Shown here one piece after another: positions 3,174-37,136 of a stretch of 44,365 bases of DNA (position 1 is the first letter of the stretch; each line of letters opens with the position of its first letter). The position numbers and the translations under genes are program-made. Under the pieces are notes generated by a model. It did no database searches. It was given only the letters and a program-made list of their open reading frames with translations, and was not told the origin of the DNA. Source of the stretch: a virus; the IMG/VR virus record IMGVR_UViG_3300036785_000423, positions 1 through 44,365 of that record. One strand, written 5' to 3'.

Positions 3174-3817
3174 GCGGCATCATCAACGCCCAACCGCAGC
3201 CGGGTGATGCTGGACCGCCCGCGCAGCAGCAAGCATCAGGGGGGCTGAACAATCCGCTGCTGGCCCAGACCGAGGCCCGGCTTGAAGGCAATTTCAGTGA
3301 CCCGCAGGTGCAACAGGATTACAAGAAAATCGTGGTGGCCGGGCTGCACATCGCGCTCGCCAATGGGCCTCGGTCATTCATGGCGAAGCTGCTCCATAGT
3401 CGTGACCCGATCGGCGACTGTGCGCGGAGTGCGGCGGCCCTGGTAATGATCATGCGGCGCCAGTCGCGCGGTGTGATGCCGATCAAGGCGATGGTGCCGG
3501 CGGGGTTGACGCTGATGCTGCACGGCCTCGACTTCATTGATCGCGCCAAGATCATGAAGGTGGCCGAACCGCAACTGGATCAGGCCACGCGGATATACAC
3601 CAACGAGATTTTTCACAAGCTAGGCATCACCACGCAGATGATCGAGCGGCTAGGGACCAGGGTGCATCAGGTGATGCAGGACCCGCAGGCGATGCAGGCG
3701 ATCAACTTGAAGGCGGGGTTGACCCGCGTGGTGCATCAGCCGACGCCGCTGCCGGGCGCGCCGGCACCAACTCCGGCACCGGCGCCGGCGGCTGCGAGAC
3801 CTGGCGGGCGGGGGTGA
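3170..3817 (+). CDS. Probable virion-associated protein (215 aa)
   Basis: The start is coupled to the previous gene by ATGA. The central region (residues 30-175) is predicted mostly helical, with a block rich in Met and basic residues (RRQSRGVMPIKAM). The last 30 residues are a Pro/Ala-rich tail, as in many podoviral structural proteins. It is the last rightward gene before a leftward cassette. No enzymatic motif is visible; a structural or assembly role is inferred only from position. Confidence 0.6.
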   Translation: MSGIINAQPQPGDAGPPAQQQASGGLNNPLLAQTEARLEGNFSDPQVQQDYKKIVVAGLHIALANGPRSFMAKLLHSRDPIGDCARSAAALVMIMRRQSRGVMPIKAMVPAGLTLMLHGLDFIDRAKIMKVAEPQLDQATRIYTNEIFHKLGITTQMIERLGTRVHQVMQDPQAMQAINLKAGLTRVVHQPTPLPGAPAPTPAPAPAAARPGGRG

Positions 3818-19778: not shown

Positions 19779-20372
19779 ATGGAGGACCCTGACCCAGCCC
19801 GGTCCGAGCGGTCTTCCGTAACGCTCGAACGGATCGCGATCGGCATTCTGGCCGTGGCACTGGGCGGCATATTCTGGTGGGGCGAGCGCGGCAATCAGAT
19901 CAGCATCAACACCGAGCACCTGGCGGCGCTCGATACAAGCCAGGCGGCGTTGCGCGCTCAGCTTTCCGACATGGTCTCGGTCGACACCTCACTGAAGAGC
20001 GACCTGGCAAACGCCAAGCGGGAACTGGTCGACCTCCGGGCCGCGCATGAAAGCGAGATGGCAAGTCTCGGGAAGGTCGATGCAAACTTGCAGGACAAGT
20101 TGCAGCGAATCATTGACCAGGGCACGCCGGTCACGCGCGTGCTGCGCGGCGACGTGGACAGGCTGGTGCGCGACATCGACGAGCTACATGTGCTGCGGGA
20201 TGTCGGGGTCCGGCAATGGCTGGAGATGGCCCAGCGCCAAGCCAAGCTAGAGGCAGATATGGAGACGACGAAGGACCGCGCGGCCAAGCTGAGGCTAGAC
20301 CTCAACGAGCACACCAAGACCGATCTCGACCTGATGCGCGATCGGATGAACAATATGGAGCGAGCAAAATGA
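19779..20372 (+). CDS. Membrane-anchored coiled-coil protein of lysis region
   Basis: This is a 197-residue protein with one transmembrane segment (about residues 18-36, IAIGILAVALGGIFWWGE). A long charged helical region follows (residues 45-195), with heptads such as RELVDLRAAHESEMASLGK. Topology and shape fit an inner-membrane spanin (Rz-like) or another envelope-spanning late protein; it is longer than many Rz proteins and has no signal peptide. It follows the last spike and overlaps the next small membrane protein by ATGA. Confidence 0.6.
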   Translation: MEDPDPARSERSSVTLERIAIGILAVALGGIFWWGERGNQISINTEHLAALDTSQAALRAQLSDMVSVDTSLKSDLANAKRELVDLRAAHESEMASLGKVDANLQDKLQRIIDQGTPVTRVLRGDVDRLVRDIDELHVLRDVGVRQWLEMAQRQAKLEADMETTKDRAAKLRLDLNEHTKTDLDLMRDRMNNMERAK

Positions 20373-30696: not shown

Positions 30697-31160
30697 GCGC
30701 TCCGGCCGGCACGGTGCGGCGGCGGGCGGTGGCCTACAGGCTAGTGCGCCCGGTCGTGCCGGAGGACGCGCTGCACCGCTCGGTGGCCGATGCGCTGGCG
30801 AAGCTACTGCTTCCACCCGCCGAATGGTGGGCCTACCCGGCAGGGCAGATCCGTCTCGACGCCCAGCAGAAGGCGAAGCTCTACCGCATGGGACTGCGGG
30901 TCGGCTTGCCAGATTTCATGGTGCTGCACGGCGCGCTGATCGGGATCGAGCTGAAGACCGAGACCGGACGATTGACGCGCACCCGGACGGTGCATCGAAA
31001 GCGCAACGGCGGCCTGCGGACCGTCGAGGGCCAGACGGACGTTTTTCCCAGGCTAACCGCGGCCGGCATGCGCGGACCGCACGTATGCCGCTCGGTCGAT
31101 GACGTACTGGTAGCGCTGCAGGCGGAGGGCGTTCCTATGCGTCCAGTGGTGCTGCTGTGA
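30693..31160 (+). CDS. VRR-NUC domain nuclease
   Basis: The 155-residue protein carries the PD-(D/E)XK core of the VRR-NUC family: GLPDFMVL with D74, then IGIELKTETG with E86 and K88, and a closing VDDVLVAL helix. VRR-NUC proteins cut branched or single-stranded DNA and are frequent in phages as Holliday-junction or flap nucleases. The start is fixed by ATGA overlap with the regulator gene. It may supply the nuclease partner that RecT lacks nearby. Confidence 0.85.
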   Translation: MSAPAGTVRRRAVAYRLVRPVVPEDALHRSVADALAKLLLPPAEWWAYPAGQIRLDAQQKAKLYRMGLRVGLPDFMVLHGALIGIELKTETGRLTRTRTVHRKRNGGLRTVEGQTDVFPRLTAAGMRGPHVCRSVDDVLVALQAEGVPMRPVVLL

Positions 31161-31366
31161 CGATTGTCCTCACGTGTGACTGCCCAGGCTGCGCCCGGAG
31201 CGCGGTGGTGCCGCTGCTCAACCGCGACGGGCGGCTGCCGATGCCGGACGGCTGGTGGTCGGGCACCTCGACCGACCGGACGATCTGCGCGTGCTCTGTC
31301 GCGTGCTTCAACGCTGCGCTGAAGGCTGGCCAGCAGCCGCTGCGGGCGGCGGAGACTGCGCCATGA
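31157..31366 (+). CDS. Small Cys-rich protein, GTG start
   Basis: This 69-residue protein has four to five Cys (CDCPGCARS and CACSVACF), fitting a zinc ribbon with a WWSGTS loop. GTGA and ATGA overlaps fix both ends. The role is probably DNA or protein binding; no family was recognised. Confidence 0.6.
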   Translation: MTIVLTCDCPGCARSAVVPLLNRDGRLPMPDGWWSGTSTDRTICACSVACFNAALKAGQQPLRAAETAP

Positions 31367-31569
31367 CCGAGCGGGCCGCACAAACCGCCGCGCCAGCCGT
31401 TGCCGACTCAGGCCGGATCGTTCACAATGCGAAAACCCGCCCCAACGGATCAGGTTGGGACGGGTCTGTAACTGAACCAAACAGCCCGGAGCGGGGCTGC
31501 GGCTACCAGGAAGTGGATGACCTGGTTCTCGCACACCTCTCGCCGGCTGGCAAGAGAGGTCTGCCATGA
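31363..31569 (+). CDS. Small hypothetical early protein
   Basis: A 68-residue, low-complexity protein (RIVHNAKTRPNGSGWDGS) coupled at both ends by ATGA. No domain was recognised. Confidence 0.5.
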   Translation: MTERAAQTAAPAVADSGRIVHNAKTRPNGSGWDGSVTEPNSPERGCGYQEVDDLVLAHLSPAGKRGLP

Positions 31570-31904
31570 GCATCAAACGAACATCCTGCCCGCAGATCGA
31601 CCGTATCAAGGTGCTGGTGGCGGGTGAATTCCGCACGACCGTGGCGCATCTGATCGGCCCGCAGCGATACCGCCGCTTGGTCCGTGCGCGCCAGGTGGCG
31701 ATGTGGCTGGCCCGGCGGACGACGGCGCACAGCCTGCCGCAGATCGGCTGGGCGTTCGACCGCGATCATACGACCATCATGCACGGCGTTGAAAAGGTGG
31801 ACGAAATCATGGAACGCGACCCGGCTTTCGCGGCGATGGTGTGGCGGCTGCGTCTCGCGGTGCTAGGGCCGGAACGGGGCGATGCGGGGCGGAGGGCGGC
31901 GTGA
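31566..31904 (+). CDS. Stand-alone DnaA domain IV protein
   Basis: The 112 residues contain only the DNA-binding domain of DnaA: RARQVAMWLARRTTAHSLPQI, then GWAFDRDHTTIMHGVEKV, where RDHTT (R66-T70) matches the DnaA-box-reading signature. Domains I-III, including the AAA+ ATPase, are missing. Such proteins can occupy DnaA boxes and help or hinder host initiation, or guide a phage origin. It stands immediately before two replication-type genes and about 1.3 kb from an iteron cluster. Confidence 0.85.
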   Translation: MSIKRTSCPQIDRIKVLVAGEFRTTVAHLIGPQRYRRLVRARQVAMWLARRTTAHSLPQIGWAFDRDHTTIMHGVEKVDEIMERDPAFAAMVWRLRLAVLGPERGDAGRRAA

Positions 31905-32491
31905 TGAGCGAGATGCTTCCTGCTCCCTTGACACCGGCTGACATGCACGGTCGCGATCTCGGCCCGATGCCATTCGACAAGGATCTGTTTGCAGACACCA
32001 AAAATATCGATCTGCTGATGTCGCCAGACAGAGCAAAGCTTATTGCCATCGCCCTCATGGAAAGGGCGTGGAATGTGCGGCCGGTTGCCAGCATTCCTGC
32101 GAAACTCAATACGGCATGGTGCTACGGAAGTCCTGTCACCAAAGCTTTCTGGAAGAAGCATAAGGACGTTATTTTCGGCGATAGATGGACGCTTTGCTCT
32201 GACGGCAGGCTGTACAACATCTGGCTGGCCAAGCAGGCAAACAAGGCGATCTCCAGGCGCCGAAACTTGGCTGTCCCTCCAGGCAGATGGCAGGAAATAC
32301 GGCAGATTGTCTTTGAGCGCGACAAGTTCACCTGCCAGCATTGCGGCGCGATCGATGTGCCTCTCGTGGTGGATCACGTCCATCCGGTGATTGCTGGCGG
32401 GTCGTCGGATCTCTCCAATCTTGTTGCGTCATGTTCGACCTGCAACCAGACCAAGGCAGCCAAGATTGACTGGGGGAGGCCCGTCCAATGA
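31904..32491 (+). CDS. DUF1376-like N-domain fused to HNH endonuclease
   Basis: The first 120 residues (MPFDKDLFADTKNIDLLMS ... TLCSDGRLYNIWLAKQAN) align in pattern with the start of the following gene. The C-terminus is an HNH nuclease: FTCQHCGA, VVDHVHPVIAGGSSDLSNLV and CSTCNQTK, with Cys pairs for zinc and catalytic His in DHVHP. ATG 31904 overlaps the DnaA-like stop by 1 nt; GTG 31901 is an alternative. The domain mix suggests a duplication of the replication protein that acquired a nuclease. Confidence 0.75.
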   Translation: MSEMLPAPLTPADMHGRDLGPMPFDKDLFADTKNIDLLMSPDRAKLIAIALMERAWNVRPVASIPAKLNTAWCYGSPVTKAFWKKHKDVIFGDRWTLCSDGRLYNIWLAKQANKAISRRRNLAVPPGRWQEIRQIVFERDKFTCQHCGAIDVPLVVDHVHPVIAGGSSDLSNLVASCSTCNQTKAAKIDWGRPVQ

Positions 32492-33378
32492 CAGATGCTC
32501 CACCCCCTTTGACGTCGCCCGACTGCGACCTGCGCGGGTATGACTTCATGCCGCTGTTCGGCAAGCGGCTGTTCGAAAGCTGGTTCGAGGAGAAGGCGTC
32601 TGACCTGGAATTTCGGGTCGGGATCAGGCTGTGGTGGGAAGCCTGGACGCAATGCCCGGCGGCCAGCCTGCCGGACGATGATGCCAAACTCACGAGGCTA
32701 GCGGGGCTCGGACGTGACATGAAGACGTGGACCAGGATCAAGGCAGTGGTACTGCATGGGTTTGTGCGGTGCAACGACGGGCGTTTGTATCACAAGCTGC
32801 TCGCTGCTCTGGCGATCGAAGCATACCAGCGCAGGTTGAAGGACCGTGCTCGCCAGCGCAACCATAGGGCGGCAAGCAAGGGTGATGGAGACCACCCTAG
32901 CGGCGCGCATGTCACGCGGACAAACGGCCCTGTCACGCGTGACAACCCCCCTGTGTCACGCGGACAGACCCCCCATGTCACGCGGACAAACGGCCCTGTC
33001 ACGCGGACTCTGACCGAAAATCCGCGTGACCTCGCGCGGAGAGTAGAGACAGAAGAATCTTATATCTTACTTGAAGAAGGGGTACCAAACCCCGCGCGCG
33101 AGGGGAAAACCGACCCAATTCCGCCTGTCGCCGATGCCGTCGGGGAAACCGCGGCAGGCGGCATCGTGGTCAATCTGGTCACAAATCTCCGATCCACGGC
33201 GACCCGAGCAGCCGCAGCACGGCCGGAGCGGACCACCGAGCAGCAGGTCAAGGCCGTCGCCACCCAGCCGCCGACCAAGCGCCCGATCAAGGCCATCTAC
33301 GCCCCGGACGAACACCTGCGCGCCGCTCGCGAGCAACTTGCACGTCGGGCCGAGAGGATGGGCCGCGACGTCGCATGA
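32488..33378 (+). CDS. DUF1376-family replication protein hosting the iterons
   Basis: Residues 5-120 carry the DUF1376 pattern (FMPLFGKRLFESWFEEKASD, LWWEAWTQCPAASLPDDDAK, MKTWTRIKAVVLHGFVRCNDGRLY), a family commonly found in phage replication modules. The middle contains a repeated VTRTNGPVTR-like peptide that results from DNA repeats (32911-33030). The C-terminus is rich in charged residues and Ala (RAAREQLARRAERMGRD). It may act as an initiator or helicase loader acting on the repeats in its own gene. Confidence 0.75.
   Translation: MTDAPPPLTSPDCDLRGYDFMPLFGKRLFESWFEEKASDLEFRVGIRLWWEAWTQCPAASLPDDDAKLTRLAGLGRDMKTWTRIKAVVLHGFVRCNDGRLYHKLLAALAIEAYQRRLKDRARQRNHRAASKGDGDHPSGAHVTRTNGPVTRDNPPVSRGQTPHVTRTNGPVTRTLTENPRDLARRVETEESYILLEEGVPNPAREGKTDPIPPVADAVGETAAGGIVVNLVTNLRSTATRAAAARPERTTEQQVKAVATQPPTKRPIKAIYAPDEHLRAAREQLARRAERMGRDVA
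32911..33030 (+). repeat. Iteron-like cluster, candidate origin
   Basis: Five direct copies of GTCACGCG (four continuing GGAC, one GTGAC) start at 32911, 32932, 32955, 32977 and 32998, spaced 21, 23, 22 and 21 bp. An inverted copy (TCCGCGTGAC) lies at 33021-33030. The copy at 32932-32943 is a perfect palindrome, GTCACGCGTGAC. Spacing near two helical turns is typical of initiator-binding iterons. Confidence 0.65.
33051..33078. other. AT-rich stretch beside iterons
   Basis: About 28 bp are strongly A+T-rich (for example AATCTTATATCTTAC), unlike the GC-rich surroundings, and lie 20 bp after the last iteron. This matches a DNA unwinding element next to an origin. It is coding (ESYILLEEG), so coding chance cannot be excluded. 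Confidence 0.45.
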
Positions 33379-33602
33379 CCCCCACCGAGACCCGGGCCCG
33401 CAACGCCACCGAGCAGGAGGCAGCCGAAGCCTCCTGGCGGGCCCTCACGCCAGCCCAGCTCCGCGCCAAGGTCAGCGAGATCGAGCGCCTGCCGCGCGGC
33501 CTCAAGGCGATCTACGCCAGCATTCTCGCCACCGCCGTCGCCCGCCACGCCCCGCACCTCGCCGGACACCTCCCGCCAGCCTGGAGCGAGACAGCGCCAT
33601 GA
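33375..33602 (+). CDS. Small helical early protein
   Basis: A 75-residue Ala-rich helical protein (LTPAQLRAKVSEIERLPRGL) coupled by ATGA on both sides. No family was recognised. Confidence 0.55.
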   Translation: MTPTETRARNATEQEAAEASWRALTPAQLRAKVSEIERLPRGLKAIYASILATAVARHAPHLAGHLPPAWSETAP

Positions 33603-33745
33603 TCGACCCCTACCGCGCCGACGACCCGGTCGGCATCTCGCCCGAGCTCCGCATCCTGCTCGCGGGTATCGTCCTCGGCGCCGCCAGCGACGAGACATTC
33701 CGCCTCATCGCCAAAGTCTTCGCCTGGCTCGCGGGGGGCATGTGA
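33599..33745 (+). CDS. Small hypothetical protein with hydrophobic helix (48 aa)
   Basis: The product (MIDPYRADDPVGISPELR...) has one hydrophobic segment (ILLAGIVLGAASD) and a second apolar end (FAWLAGGM), so membrane association is possible. It is coupled upstream by ATGA, and the next ATG follows its stop with no gap. Confidence 0.5.
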   Translation: MIDPYRADDPVGISPELRILLAGIVLGAASDETFRLIAKVFAWLAGGM

Positions 33746-34183
33746 ATGGCTCGTGAGCACGGCCGCGTGTGCATCAACTGCCGCTACTGGAAACCAACCG
33801 CTCCACCAGGATGGACGTCGGACGAAACAACCGAGTTCAGCCTCTTCGAGCTCAGCCAGCACCTACACAAACTCGGTAACTACAGGATCGGTGAGCGCGG
33901 ATGGCCGGGAAACTGTGGCCTCCAGCCAACCCATATCCCCACATCGTCCGGCCACTCATGCGCCCAGTTCGACGCCGCCGTCCGCATGGTCAACACCCAT
34001 TGGGACATTTGGGCCGAAAGGCGCCAGCGATACGCCCAGACCGACAGACTCCGCGCCGAGATCAAGCGCCTCAAAGCCCTCGCCGCATCGCGCCTCGCCC
34101 AACTGCGCAAAAGACCAGCCAAACCCAAACGCGCCAAGACCATACAGCCCGAACCCAACGGGACAGCCGATCATGCCCCTTGA
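33746..34183 (+). CDS. Cys-containing protein with basic C-terminal helix
   Basis: The N-terminus has CINCRYWK and later GNCGLQ and HSCAQF, four Cys likely to hold one metal ion. The C-terminal 45 residues are a basic helix and Lys/Pro tail (RLKALAASRLAQLRKRPAK). It overlaps the NusG-like gene by 11 nt. Similar small proteins of unknown role accompany phage early genes. Confidence 0.6.
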   Translation: MAREHGRVCINCRYWKPTAPPGWTSDETTEFSLFELSQHLHKLGNYRIGERGWPGNCGLQPTHIPTSSGHSCAQFDAAVRMVNTHWDIWAERRQRYAQTDRLRAEIKRLKALAASRLAQLRKRPAKPKRAKTIQPEPNGTADHAP

Positions 34184-34802
34184 CCAATCAGCCACACACG
34201 CTGTATCCCAGCAGCCACACAGGCTATGCGGCCAGCCTCGCGAGGCTGCTACGCCTAGCGGATGCCGTCCACCCATCGGCATCCGATGGTTCGCCGTCAG
34301 CACCTACCCCCAGGCCGAACGACGCGCCATTCAGAACCTCGCCCAGGCCGGTTATGCTACCTACCTGCCCCTGGTCGCCGTCAGGCGCCGCGATCGCGTC
34401 CTGCGGTCCCTCGTCCATCTCGTCGAGATCCCGCTGTTCGCAAGCTACGCCTTCGTACGCTTCGACCGAGCCAAAGATCCCTGGTGGCCCATCATCCGAA
34501 CCCCGGGCGTCTATGCGCTCCTGATGGACGAAGCGGCCCAGAAGCCCATCCCCGTCACAGAGGGCGCTGTCGAGGTGCTGCAGGCGACGGAAGCCCAGCG
34601 CGCACTCATCCCCCCGCCAACCGCCACACTGGCACCAGGGACCGCCGTAAAGGTTCTGGCGGGTTTCTTTAAGGGGTGCCAGGCTGTAGTGAAGGCGGCA
34701 TTCCATCCGAAGGTGAGGGTGACCCTGATGGTCCTCGGAGGATTGAGGGACGTGACGCTTGACCTAGGAGACGTGTCTTCGATCCAAAGTCCGCCGGGGT
34801 GA
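34173..34802 (+). CDS. NusG/RfaH-like transcription factor
   Basis: After a disordered N-terminal 36 residues, residues 37-120 match the NGN domain (RWFAVSTYPQAERRAIQNL, YATYLPLVAVRRRDRV, LFASYAFVRFD, WWPIIRTPGVYALL), which binds RNA polymerase beta'. Residues 152-205 fit a KOW domain (LAPGTAVKVLAGFFKGCQAVV). NusG family proteins control pausing and termination. As the last gene of the rightward early operon and the nearest upstream of the late block, it may act as an antiterminator for late transcription. ATG 34173 is used; the family core needs no earlier start. Confidence 0.8.
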   Translation: MPLDQSATHAVSQQPHRLCGQPREAATPSGCRPPIGIRWFAVSTYPQAERRAIQNLAQAGYATYLPLVAVRRRDRVLRSLVHLVEIPLFASYAFVRFDRAKDPWWPIIRTPGVYALLMDEAAQKPIPVTEGAVEVLQATEAQRALIPPPTATLAPGTAVKVLAGFFKGCQAVVKAAFHPKVRVTLMVLGGLRDVTLDLGDVSSIQSPPG

Positions 34803-35268
34803 ACGAAACCGTGCGAGTATCGCGTTCAACATAAAGGATTTTCACCCCAGCGGCTTGCTGAGCTTTGCTTGGCCTCGTGAGATATCTCCCACTCTTCGAG
34901 CCCTTCGCCACCGACTTAACGTCAATCACCACGGGACTTTCCCCATGCTTCCAGGCAATGAAATCCGCAATCCCGGCTTGGCTAATGTTGCGGAATACGT
35001 CGTAGCCCTGTCGGATTAGCCACTCGCAGGCCATTATCTCAGCGAGCGCCCCGAGATGCTTGGAATCAACGCCAGGGACCTGGGGATTGCGTTTGAACTT
35101 GCCAATCTTGAAGCCAGTAATGCCCTTGTCAGCCTCATGAAATGCCTTGCGAGAACAAATGGTTGAGCAGTATTTGCCCTGCCCACGCGCAATTCGCGAA
35201 GGCAAGAGCAGCATTACCTTGCCGCATTCGAAGCATTCTCTCGTGACGCGCTGTATGTGAATTGACAT
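34669..35268 (-). CDS. PD-(D/E)XK endonuclease-like protein with zinc finger
   Basis: The N-terminus is a zinc-finger-like set (C12, C15, C34, C38: CFECGK and CSTICSRK). Residues 70-120 fit a restriction-endonuclease-like core: LGALAEIMACEWLIRQGY with E77, AGIADFIAW with D102 and VVIDVKS with D116 and K118. The last 134 bp lie antisense to the end of the NusG-like gene. Leftward orientation apart from its neighbours suggests an independent or acquired gene with a defence or homing role, although repair of branched DNA is also possible. Confidence 0.75.
   Translation of the reverse strand: MSIHIQRVTRECFECGKVMLLLPSRIARGQGKYCSTICSRKAFHEADKGITGFKIGKFKRNPQVPGVDSKHLGALAEIMACEWLIRQGYDVFRNISQAGIADFIAWKHGESPVVIDVKSVAKGSKSGRYLTRPSKAQQAAGVKILYVERDTRTVSFTPADFGSKTRLLGQASRPSILRGPSGSPSPSDGMPPSLQPGTP
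34796..34848 (+). terminator. Possible structured end after NusG-like gene
   Basis: GGGGTGAA (34796-34803, containing the stop) is mirrored by TTCACCCC (34841-34848), and inside it GAACG (34801-34805) pairs with CGTTC (34823-34827). The nested dyad could fold in RNA, but there is no following U-run and it lies in the opposing coding sequence. Confidence 0.25.
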
Positions 35269-35296
35269 CAGATGGGTCTCGCTAGGTCCAGTCCAT

Positions 35297-35309
35297 TGAT
35301 AAAGTATCA
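35297..35309. promoter_or_regulatory. Palindrome TGATA-AAG-TATCA
   Basis: A perfect 5-bp-arm palindrome lies in the divergent region and overlaps the -10 of the leftward nuclease promoter candidate. It could be an operator for that gene. Confidence 0.35.
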
Positions 35310-35331
35310 CAAAAAACCACTGCGGAGTGAA
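35303..35331 (-). promoter_or_regulatory. Promoter candidate for leftward nuclease
   Basis: On the minus strand TTCACT (35331-35326) and GATACT (35308-35303) are 17 nt apart, with an A/T-run in the spacer. Transcription would begin near 35296, 28 nt before the ATG. Confidence 0.35.
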
Positions 35332-35391
35332 CTCGTCGCCGCCCACGACCTCACCCCAGCCGCAGACCTCGCCGCGTAACCGGAGATCACC

Positions 35392-35871
35392 ATGGCACTC
35401 GCCCCAGCTGCCCCACCACCCGATCCAACCGCCGGCGCTGGCATGGCTGGCGGTATGGCAGGCCCGGGCATGGCTGCCGGGCCCGAGCCAGACGCCGACA
35501 CCGACGACAATGTGCTGGTCACTATCTGCCAGGCGCCAGGCGGCGGTTACACCGTCTACGCAGGCGACGAACCCGAAGGCGACCAGGGCGAGCCGCCCGA
35601 GACCGGCGACATGAGCGAGGCCGACACCGACGCCATGGGACCGGCCGGAGCGCAGCCAGCAGGCGGGGGCAATGGCGGTGCTGAAGCCGCTGAACCGCAG
35701 CCACAAGGCCAGCCGGCAGCCTCCATCGGCGAGGCGCTCAAGCTCGCCATGGACATCATGCGACAGAGCGAGAACAGCGCAGCCGGTGGCCCCAACGACC
35801 AGTTCGCCGCAGGCTTCAACGCCCCCAAGGCGCCAACGCCCGCCGCAGGCTCGCCAGCCCAGAAGTACTGA
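35392..35871 (+). CDS. Acidic Gly/Ala/Pro-rich protein at start of late block
   Basis: This 159-residue acidic protein is low complexity except for a short folded-looking segment (NVLVTICQAPGGGYTVYAGDE) and a helix near the end (SIGEALKLAMDIMRQSEN). GGAG lies 8 nt before the ATG. As first gene of the late operon before the terminase it could be a packaging or head accessory protein; no family was recognised. Confidence 0.6.
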   Translation: MALAPAAPPPDPTAGAGMAGGMAGPGMAAGPEPDADTDDNVLVTICQAPGGGYTVYAGDEPEGDQGEPPETGDMSEADTDAMGPAGAQPAGGGNGGAEAAEPQPQGQPAASIGEALKLAMDIMRQSENSAAGGPNDQFAAGFNAPKAPTPAAGSPAQKY

Positions 35872-35875
35872 CGCG

Positions 35876-36124
35876 ATGCCGCTGTCACGGCATAGCAGCA
35901 TGAGCGAGCAGCTAATCCTCGAAGCACTTGGCGTCTATCGCGATCGATCTGCGGCGCAACTTGTCGAACTGACCGGACTTGGTGCTGGGTCGCTGTATCC
36001 AGCATTGCTGTCACTGGAGGCGAGCGGCGCGATCGAAAGCCGATGGTTCAATGAGGAGGGCGCCTGGCCGCGACGCCGCGTGTATCGTCTACCCGAGGCG
36101 GCGTCTCAAAAACATGACGCGTGA
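35876..36124 (+). CDS. PadR-like winged-helix protein
   Basis: The 82 residues resemble a minimal winged helix: LILEALGVYRDRSAAQLVEL, then GLGAGSLYPALLSLEASGAI (recognition helix region) and a wing (RRRVYRLPE). PadR-type folds bind DNA as dimers. A second ATG at 35900 would remove eight residues. In the late operon it might regulate late genes or serve as a DNA-binding packaging factor. Confidence 0.65.
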   Translation: MPLSRHSSMSEQLILEALGVYRDRSAAQLVELTGLGAGSLYPALLSLEASGAIESRWFNEEGAWPRRRVYRLPEAASQKHDA

Positions 36125-36158
36125 TAATCCCAGTTATCGCGAGTAGCGCAATTCAATC

Positions 36159-36365
36159 ATGGCAGCCACCGTTCCACCCACGCTTGACGAAGCCATAACC
36201 AGAGCGCGGTCGCGGACCCTAATGGCCGCGAAGATCTTTAGCCGTCTCATGGCTGAGTTCGATGGCAATCTGGAATACTGCCACGAAGCCATGGAGGAAG
36301 TGCTGGATGCCGCCGATCAGCTGGCCACGTTGGAAAATCTGCAACACGAGAACGCCAGACGCTGA
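36159..36365 (+). CDS. Small helical protein
   Basis: A 68-residue, mostly helical protein (AITRARSRTLMAAKIFSRLM) with acidic second half. The following start region overlaps its stop (TGATG). No family was recognised. Confidence 0.6.
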   Translation: MAATVPPTLDEAITRARSRTLMAAKIFSRLMAEFDGNLEYCHEAMEEVLDAADQLATLENLQHENARR

Positions 36366-36418
36366 TGCCGCCTCCCGTTCCAGCCCCCCGCATCGGAAAA
36401 ACCACAGGAAACCGGCCC

Positions 36419-36595
36419 ATGCCGTCCAAGTCCGCATCCCAGCAGCGCCTCATGCGCGCCGCAGCCCACACCAAGGGCGGCTACGGTGGCGTGCCCATGG
36501 CCGTCGGCAAGGACTTCGTCGCAGCCGACAAGAAGGCCGGCAAGCGCAAGCTGCCCAACCGCATCGGCCGCGGCCTGATCAATCGCGGCGCATGA
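36419..36595 (+). CDS. Small basic phage protein of SKSxxQQRLM type
   Basis: The 58-residue product begins MPSKSASQQRLMRAAAH, followed by GYGGVPMAVGKDFVAADKK, a motif set seen in a small family of unknown role near phage structural genes. ATG 36419 is preferred because AGGAAA lies 8 nt upstream and the family begins there; an in-frame ATG at 36365 would add 18 Pro-rich residues. Confidence 0.7.
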   Translation: MPSKSASQQRLMRAAAHTKGGYGGVPMAVGKDFVAADKKAGKRKLPNRIGRGLINRGA

Positions 36596-36753
36596 GCATG
36601 AACGCCCTCGAACGCATTGCCGAGCTGTTCCGCACCGCCCGCATGGCCGGCTGGACCGACGAAGGCGTCGCCGCCCTCGTGCTCGCCGAACTCGGGCTGG
36701 ACGAGAACGGCAGCCCGATAGAGCGCGAGCCACAACCGGCGCGCGAAGCGTGA
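36592..36753 (+). CDS. Small helical protein (53 aa)
   Basis: The product (MSMNALERIAELFRTARMAG...) is two helices with a TDEGVAALVLAELGLDENG end. ATGA links it to the upstream gene, and it ends 20 nt before the terminase small-subunit candidate. Confidence 0.55.
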   Translation: MSMNALERIAELFRTARMAGWTDEGVAALVLAELGLDENGSPIEREPQPAREA

Positions 36754-36773
36754 AGCGCACTGTGTGCTAATCT

Positions 36774-37136
36774 ATGCCAATTTCCAGAACATCGGGACAG
36801 GGTCGTAGAAAAGGAATACCAAACAAGGCGACCGCCGAGATCAAAGAGCTTGCCCAAAGATGGGGGCCTGCCGCAATCGCCAAACTCGCGATGATGGCCG
36901 GCCTTAATGGCGCCGGCATCGCCAAGCAGGAAGCAACCCGCGTCGCTGCAATCAAGGAACTGCTCGACCGTGGCTACGGCAAAGCACGTCAGCCAATTAC
37001 CGGGGGCGATGATGACGATCCGCCAGTTACCATCTCATTCCGCTGGGCGGATGCAGTAGTACCAGTCGATGGCCCGTCACTTGGAGATATCACTACCGTT
37101 CTGTCCGAGGCCGTGGCAAAGACCACTGATCGATGA
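36774..37136 (+). CDS. Terminase small subunit candidate
   Basis: The 120-residue protein opens with the basic GQGRRKGIPNKAT motif shared by a group of phage DNA-packaging small subunits and related DNA-binding proteins, then a helical part (EIKELAQRWGPAAIAKLAMM). It directly precedes and overlaps TerL by 68 nt, which is the usual position. TerS proteins recognise the packaging site. No direct proof is visible. Confidence 0.65.
   Translation: MPISRTSGQGRRKGIPNKATAEIKELAQRWGPAAIAKLAMMAGLNGAGIAKQEATRVAAIKELLDRGYGKARQPITGGDDDDPPVTISFRWADAVVPVDGPSLGDITTVLSEAVAKTTDR

Follow-up and report, generated by a model that had tools for sequence, protein, structure and literature searches.

Palindromic iterons in the linker-coding part of a DUF1376 gene mark a probable phage replication origin

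Introduction

Imperfect inverted-repeat iterons lie in the middle of gene O in lambda and Stx phages, where they are followed by an AT-rich tract (PMC7466680). A comparable arrangement has been described for pSK41, where the winged-helix N-terminal domain of Rep binds four boxes placed centrally in the rep gene, the origin encodes the linker, and the C-terminal domain is separate (PMC5703833). The Rac prophage of E. coli K-12 carries the origin oriJ (PMC3945230), and phage ICP1 encodes Odn, an origin-directed nuclease in which an initiator-type DNA-binding domain is fused to a nuclease (PMC8263062). DUF1376 is rarely named: five papers in the non-subscription literature searched mention it, and none of them shares this term with the phrase ‘origin of replication’.

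The DNA analysed here (‘the window’) is a virus record of 44,365 bases, in which a preliminary description had proposed an origin within a DUF1376 gene. Within an initiator-like gene, palindromic iterons spaced by two helical turns precede a purine tract and an AT-rich element, and this arrangement is kept as DNA and not as peptide, which argues for an intragenic origin; positions 32910–33075 are probably a phage replication origin lying where its own initiator gene encodes the linker. Judged from sequence comparison, the same plan, with different repeat sequences, appears across many phages.

As in the lambda type, inverted-repeat iterons lie inside an initiator gene of the window and an AT-rich tract (33053–33075) adjoins them. 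Unlike lambda, the proposed initiator matches DUF1376 and phrog_22470, with no match of the protein to lambda O or O-like families at E≤0.1 (Pfam, PHROGs); the iterons are 13–14 bp long at steps of 21–23 bp; relatives place a tract of purine hexamers before the AT-rich element; and the window ORFs tested yielded no helicase or loader gene, nor a P or DnaC-like gene next to the initiator gene. As in the RepA_N replicon pSK41, the iterons occupy the linker-coding part of a predicted winged-helix-like initiator, although the window protein lacks a PF06970 (RepA_N) match at E≤0.1 in the Pfam scan, its structural match is weak, and the carriers of the two arrangements differ (phages versus Firmicutes plasmids). 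YdaU of the Rac prophage in E. coli K-12 (L268, 6120–6977) is annotated as a DUF1376 protein; by eye, its linker-coding region holds an inverted repeat of C/G, AAAGATACAGATAAAGAT, AAAGAT repeats and repeats of the TGTTCAAACA/TGTTTGAACA type, an iteron sequence that differs from that of the window.

The initiator gene and its predicted protein

The DUF1376 gene (32488..33378, + strand) encodes 296 amino acids matching PF07120 (E=8.5e-8; 32.9 bits, against a Pfam gathering score of 30.1) and the replication protein family phrog_22470 (E=3.8e-27). AlphaFold2 models residues 1–130 with pLDDT mostly >90 and an element order of H-H-H-E-H-H-E-E-H, and together with Foldseek this predicts an N-terminal winged-helix-like DNA-binding domain over codons 1–135 (32488..32892, + strand). 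The best PDB match in Foldseek, 4pta, is weak (E=0.055, rmsd 8.8), with the further initiator structures 5kbj, 4pql and 4pt7 lower in the list; all four are structures that we take to be RepA_N initiators. Residues 150–248 have pLDDT mostly <50 and form a linker of low predicted order, followed by a C-terminal helix at codons 274–290 (33307..33357, + strand; pLDDT 72–91 by block) that may contact the replisome.

In the proposed mechanism, iteron binding along one face of the DNA would fall to the N-terminal domain, and chiefly to its long helix at residues 113–131; the iteron-bound complex would then melt the AT-rich element, and the C-terminal part of the protein would recruit the replicative helicase of the host or the loader of that helicase.

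Organisation of the iteron array

Five forward copies of GTCACGCG start at 32911, 32932, 32955, 32977 and 32998, in steps of 21, 23, 22 and 21 bp, in agreement with the five copies at 21–23 bp of the preliminary description. They mark iteron 1 (TGTCACGCGGACA, 32910..32922), iteron 2 (TGTCACGCGTGACA, 32931..32944), iteron 3 (TGTCACGCGGACA, 32954..32966), iteron 4 (TGTCACGCGGACA, 32976..32988) and iteron 5 (TGTCACGCGGACT, 32997..33009), all on the + strand. In place of the single inverted copy originally reported, two reverse-strand matches are present: 32936–32943, which supplies the opposite arm of copy 2 and makes iteron 2 a perfect palindrome, and 33023–33030, within an inverted copy (GTCACGCGGA on the − strand, 33021..33030). 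Iterons 1–4 are each a 13–14 bp inverted repeat of the form TGTCACGCG(T)GACA, and of the seven TGTC-N4-7-GACA palindromes in 44 kb, four are these iterons.

As an 8-mer, GTCACGCG is not rare (4.1 copies expected in the window by shuffling), whereas its clustering is: none of 30 first-order Markov sequences as long as the window has any 8-mer more than three times within 130 bp, and the window holds no other cluster of the motif, only a single extra copy at 20130. Synonymous-codon shuffling of the DUF1376 gene gave a mean of 0.83 matches and a maximum of 5, against 7 observed (0/20,000). The earlier observation of a frame shift at the third copy also holds, with copies 1, 2, 4 and 5 in codon phase 0 and copy 3, 467 nt from the gene start, in phase 2.

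The array is followed by a purine-rich tract, GGAGAGTAGAGACAGAAGAA (33038..33057, + strand), at a position where relatives carry (GGGACA)n or (GGGAGA)n; taken by itself, the window gene shows no significant purine enrichment (p=0.11). The AT-rich stretch previously noted after the repeats is real but short (33053..33075, + strand; 16/20 A/T, local GC 45%), and is one of only two places in 44 kb with 20-nt stretches of ≥16 A/T; it is the proposed unwinding site. Iterons, purine tract and AT-rich element all fall within the part of the gene that encodes the low-confidence linker.

Two further features have been kept apart from these elements. A hairpin, GGGGTACCAAACCCC (33079..33093, + strand), is weak in the window (fold z = −0.32, not significant), and post-AT hairpins are for that reason left outside the origin claim; among the matches listed, 20 of 62 genes have a stem of ≥7 bp after the AT-rich element, against 2.9 expected, with stem sequences that vary. 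Several relatives (L178, L180, L214, L215, L222, L238, L248 and others) have a hairpin with a 7-bp stem, mostly with a 4-nt loop and in constant reading frame, its sequence differing while pairing is kept. GC skew, which the preliminary description had suggested as a check, passes from positive to negative at ∼33 kb within 31000–37000, with the cumulative maximum there, before the iterons. The turn is not general, since just 12 of 41 loci have the higher skew on the upstream side, and it is not taken as evidence because the relatives do not share the switch.

Phased palindromic sites in a phage early region, with a NusG-like gene nearby, could also be transcription operators for the initiator or another regulator, with no part in replication, and initiators often autoregulate. 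The sites, however, begin ∼420 nt into the DUF1376 gene, the region upstream has no cluster of copies, and in relatives the repeats are followed by the purine tract and AT-rich element, which makes a purely regulatory role unlikely; origin and operator functions could nonetheless coexist at one site.

Conservation of the repeats as DNA in relatives

At the DNA level the window had no match in the phages collection, and the DUF1376 protein alone, as the query of a first search, returned no relatives; a back-translated pattern search recovered at least 80 viral relatives, of which 66 were analysed, one per visible near-identical group. In two of the phages encountered, vB_PaeS-D14L and Solano (L003, L006), the deposited DUF1376 gene starts late or is covered by other ORFs. 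Linker sequences were inspected in 30 genes, the window included, with nine GenBank phage loci, one of which ends at a record edge. Most of the inspected relatives carry palindromic repeats of differing sequence, then a purine-rich tract, then an AT-rich element, and some do not; in aligned relatives the purine tract precedes the AT peak. The preliminary description had held that absence of the repeats from close relatives would count against an origin; relatives keep either a GTCACGCG-type or another palindromic motif, with exceptions.

Of 54 phage DUF1376 genes left after removal of redundancy from the matches listed, the window included, 20 have repeats beyond the codon-shuffle null at p<0.05 and 16 at p<0.01 (15 on rerun); of 159 control ORFs taken elsewhere in these loci, the corresponding numbers are 3 and 0; the remaining 34 of the 54 genes among the matches listed failed this exact 7-mer test. 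Successive copies of the commonest 7-mer are often 21–24, 33–36 or 44–46 bp apart (clusters near 22, 34 and 45), and spacings of 16–60 bp have a best period of 11.5 bp (R=0.74, against null maxima of 0.48–0.50, the 7-mer being picked within each gene and the null run without re-picking). Spacings <16 bp, mostly 12-bp steps of purine repeats, were excluded from the period fit. Codon phases of the spacings are even (20/20/18); one relative has 22-bp steps in phases 2, 0, 1 and 2 (L017) and another has 23-bp steps (L024).

Tandem similarity in this region might instead be a by-product of slippage or of a repetitive, flexible protein linker, given the low predicted order of the linker and the similar peptides (VTRT, VTRD) encoded by four of the copies. 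Peptide-preserving codon shuffles, however, destroy the repeats, copies occur in all three frames, and spacings lack a codon preference, so that this explanation is very improbable. The codon-shuffle tests, the all-three-frame copies in relatives and the non-codon spacing of ∼11.5 bp strongly support the earlier proposal that it is the DNA motif, and not the peptide, that is kept.

Coupling of the DNA-binding domain to iteron type

An iteron type, defined by eye, could be assigned in 40 of 50 relatives among the matches listed and in none of the other 10 by motif counts. The nearest neighbour by domain identity shares the iteron type in 28 of 37 typed genes, against a shuffled mean of 8.5, a comparison uncorrected for kinship. 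Columns most tied to iteron type include, within the long helix, 113, 116, 119, 120, 123, 126 and 130, and three close pairs with unlike iterons (L182/L177, 0.85 domain identity; L180/L178; L194/L188, 0.78) differ at scattered positions too, but with a concentration at residues 117–131. This association and the close-pair comparison single out codons 113–131 (32824..32880, + strand) as the proposed setter of iteron specificity. On these alignments, iteron sequence follows the DNA-binding domain, mostly residues 113–131, which fits either a specificity role or joint exchange with the iterons; swapping of the distal part of the gene could carry helix and iterons together without any role in specificity.

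Spaced motif copies in viral and wider sequence

Three spaced copies of GTCACGCG were found in 47 stretches of viral contigs, in 22 protein clusters, of which 17 were represented by one ORF each in a PHROGs scan (L019, L031, L034, L049 and L055 being left out). Nine cluster representatives (L016, L017, L013, L015, L018, L024, L035, L039 and L051) match replication-initiation, replication or primosomal PHROGs; their clusters comprise 28 loci and, with the frame of L014 cut short, account for 27–28 of the 47 stretches, the remaining scanned clusters having no PHROGs match or tail-like matches. With a first permuted control motif, 12 stretches were found and one or two ORFs scanned in each; one of these stretches (L261) matches O-like initiator families, so that spaced repeats with a different sequence may likewise point to an initiator. 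A second control motif gave a single stretch, outside the ORF scan. In a genome-wide three-copy scan, no locus among the matches listed matched the DUF1376-domain HMM, and those inspected were mainly tandem repeats.

The recurrence of such arrays in several distinct phage initiator families ties them to initiation and leaves little probability that the site serves partition, packaging or recombination, even though iteron arrays are also found at centromere-like sites (PMC6669507) and the distal part of the gene has seemingly been exchanged as a block.

Neighbouring genes

Upstream of the iterons by ∼1 kb lies a gene encoding DnaA domain IV only (31566..31904, + strand; PF08299, E=2.2e-22), which the preliminary description had cited in support of an origin. 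DnaA domain IV binds DNA, and this protein, or host DnaA, could in principle read the site. The sole match to the DnaA box TTWTNCACA in the window, however, is at 3609, far from the iterons, the repeats are unlike that box, and the gene is present in only 5 of 46 phage records, counting that of the window; recognition by DnaA is thus hardly to be expected. The argument from the DnaA-like gene fails because no DnaA box is nearby and few relatives carry the gene, whereas the anatomy of the locus and its relatives support the reading as a putative origin well. A DnaA/oriC-type origin was also considered and rejected, the site having no DnaA-box cluster. Synechococcus phage Ssp-JY42 (L002) carries a trio of HNH, DUF1376-like and DnaA C-terminal genes in another order, and its HNH protein has no match to the DUF1376-domain HMM.

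Between the DnaA domain IV gene and the initiator gene lies an HNH gene (31904..32491, + strand; PF01844, E=7.3e-11), the N-terminal half of which is paralogous to the DUF1376 domain (E=3.5e-14 against our own DUF1376-domain HMM; 34% identity over 122 aa with the DUF1376 protein). The likeness stops at residue 116 of the latter and so leaves out most of the residues proposed to set specificity. AlphaFold2 gives a similar N-terminal element order, with the HNH part poorly modelled from an alignment that held no other HNH protein, and no HNH relative spanning both domains was found in the phages collection. As in Odn, an initiator-type DNA-binding domain is fused to a nuclease domain, making this gene a candidate origin-directed nuclease by analogy; the nuclease is HNH and not T5orf172, and the DNA-binding domain is of DUF1376 and not RepA_N type. 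A tentative extension, which we consider possible but doubtful, is that a single origin-recognition module occurs twice at the locus, once in an initiator that has an internal origin and once in an HNH nuclease cutting the origins of competitor phages or satellites, with residues 113–131 setting initiator specificity and helix and iteron exchanged as a cassette.

Implications for DUF1376 phages

An intragenic origin of this kind would give the unnamed family DUF1376 a concrete proposed function, and it predicts the position of the origin in many temperate phages, in some of which the DUF1376 gene has been missed or shortened in the deposited annotation. The pairing of residues 113–131 with iteron sequence offers a recognition map open to test, and may provide a route towards defining phage replicons and incompatibility groups, while the adjoining HNH gene indicates a possible origin-targeting nuclease.
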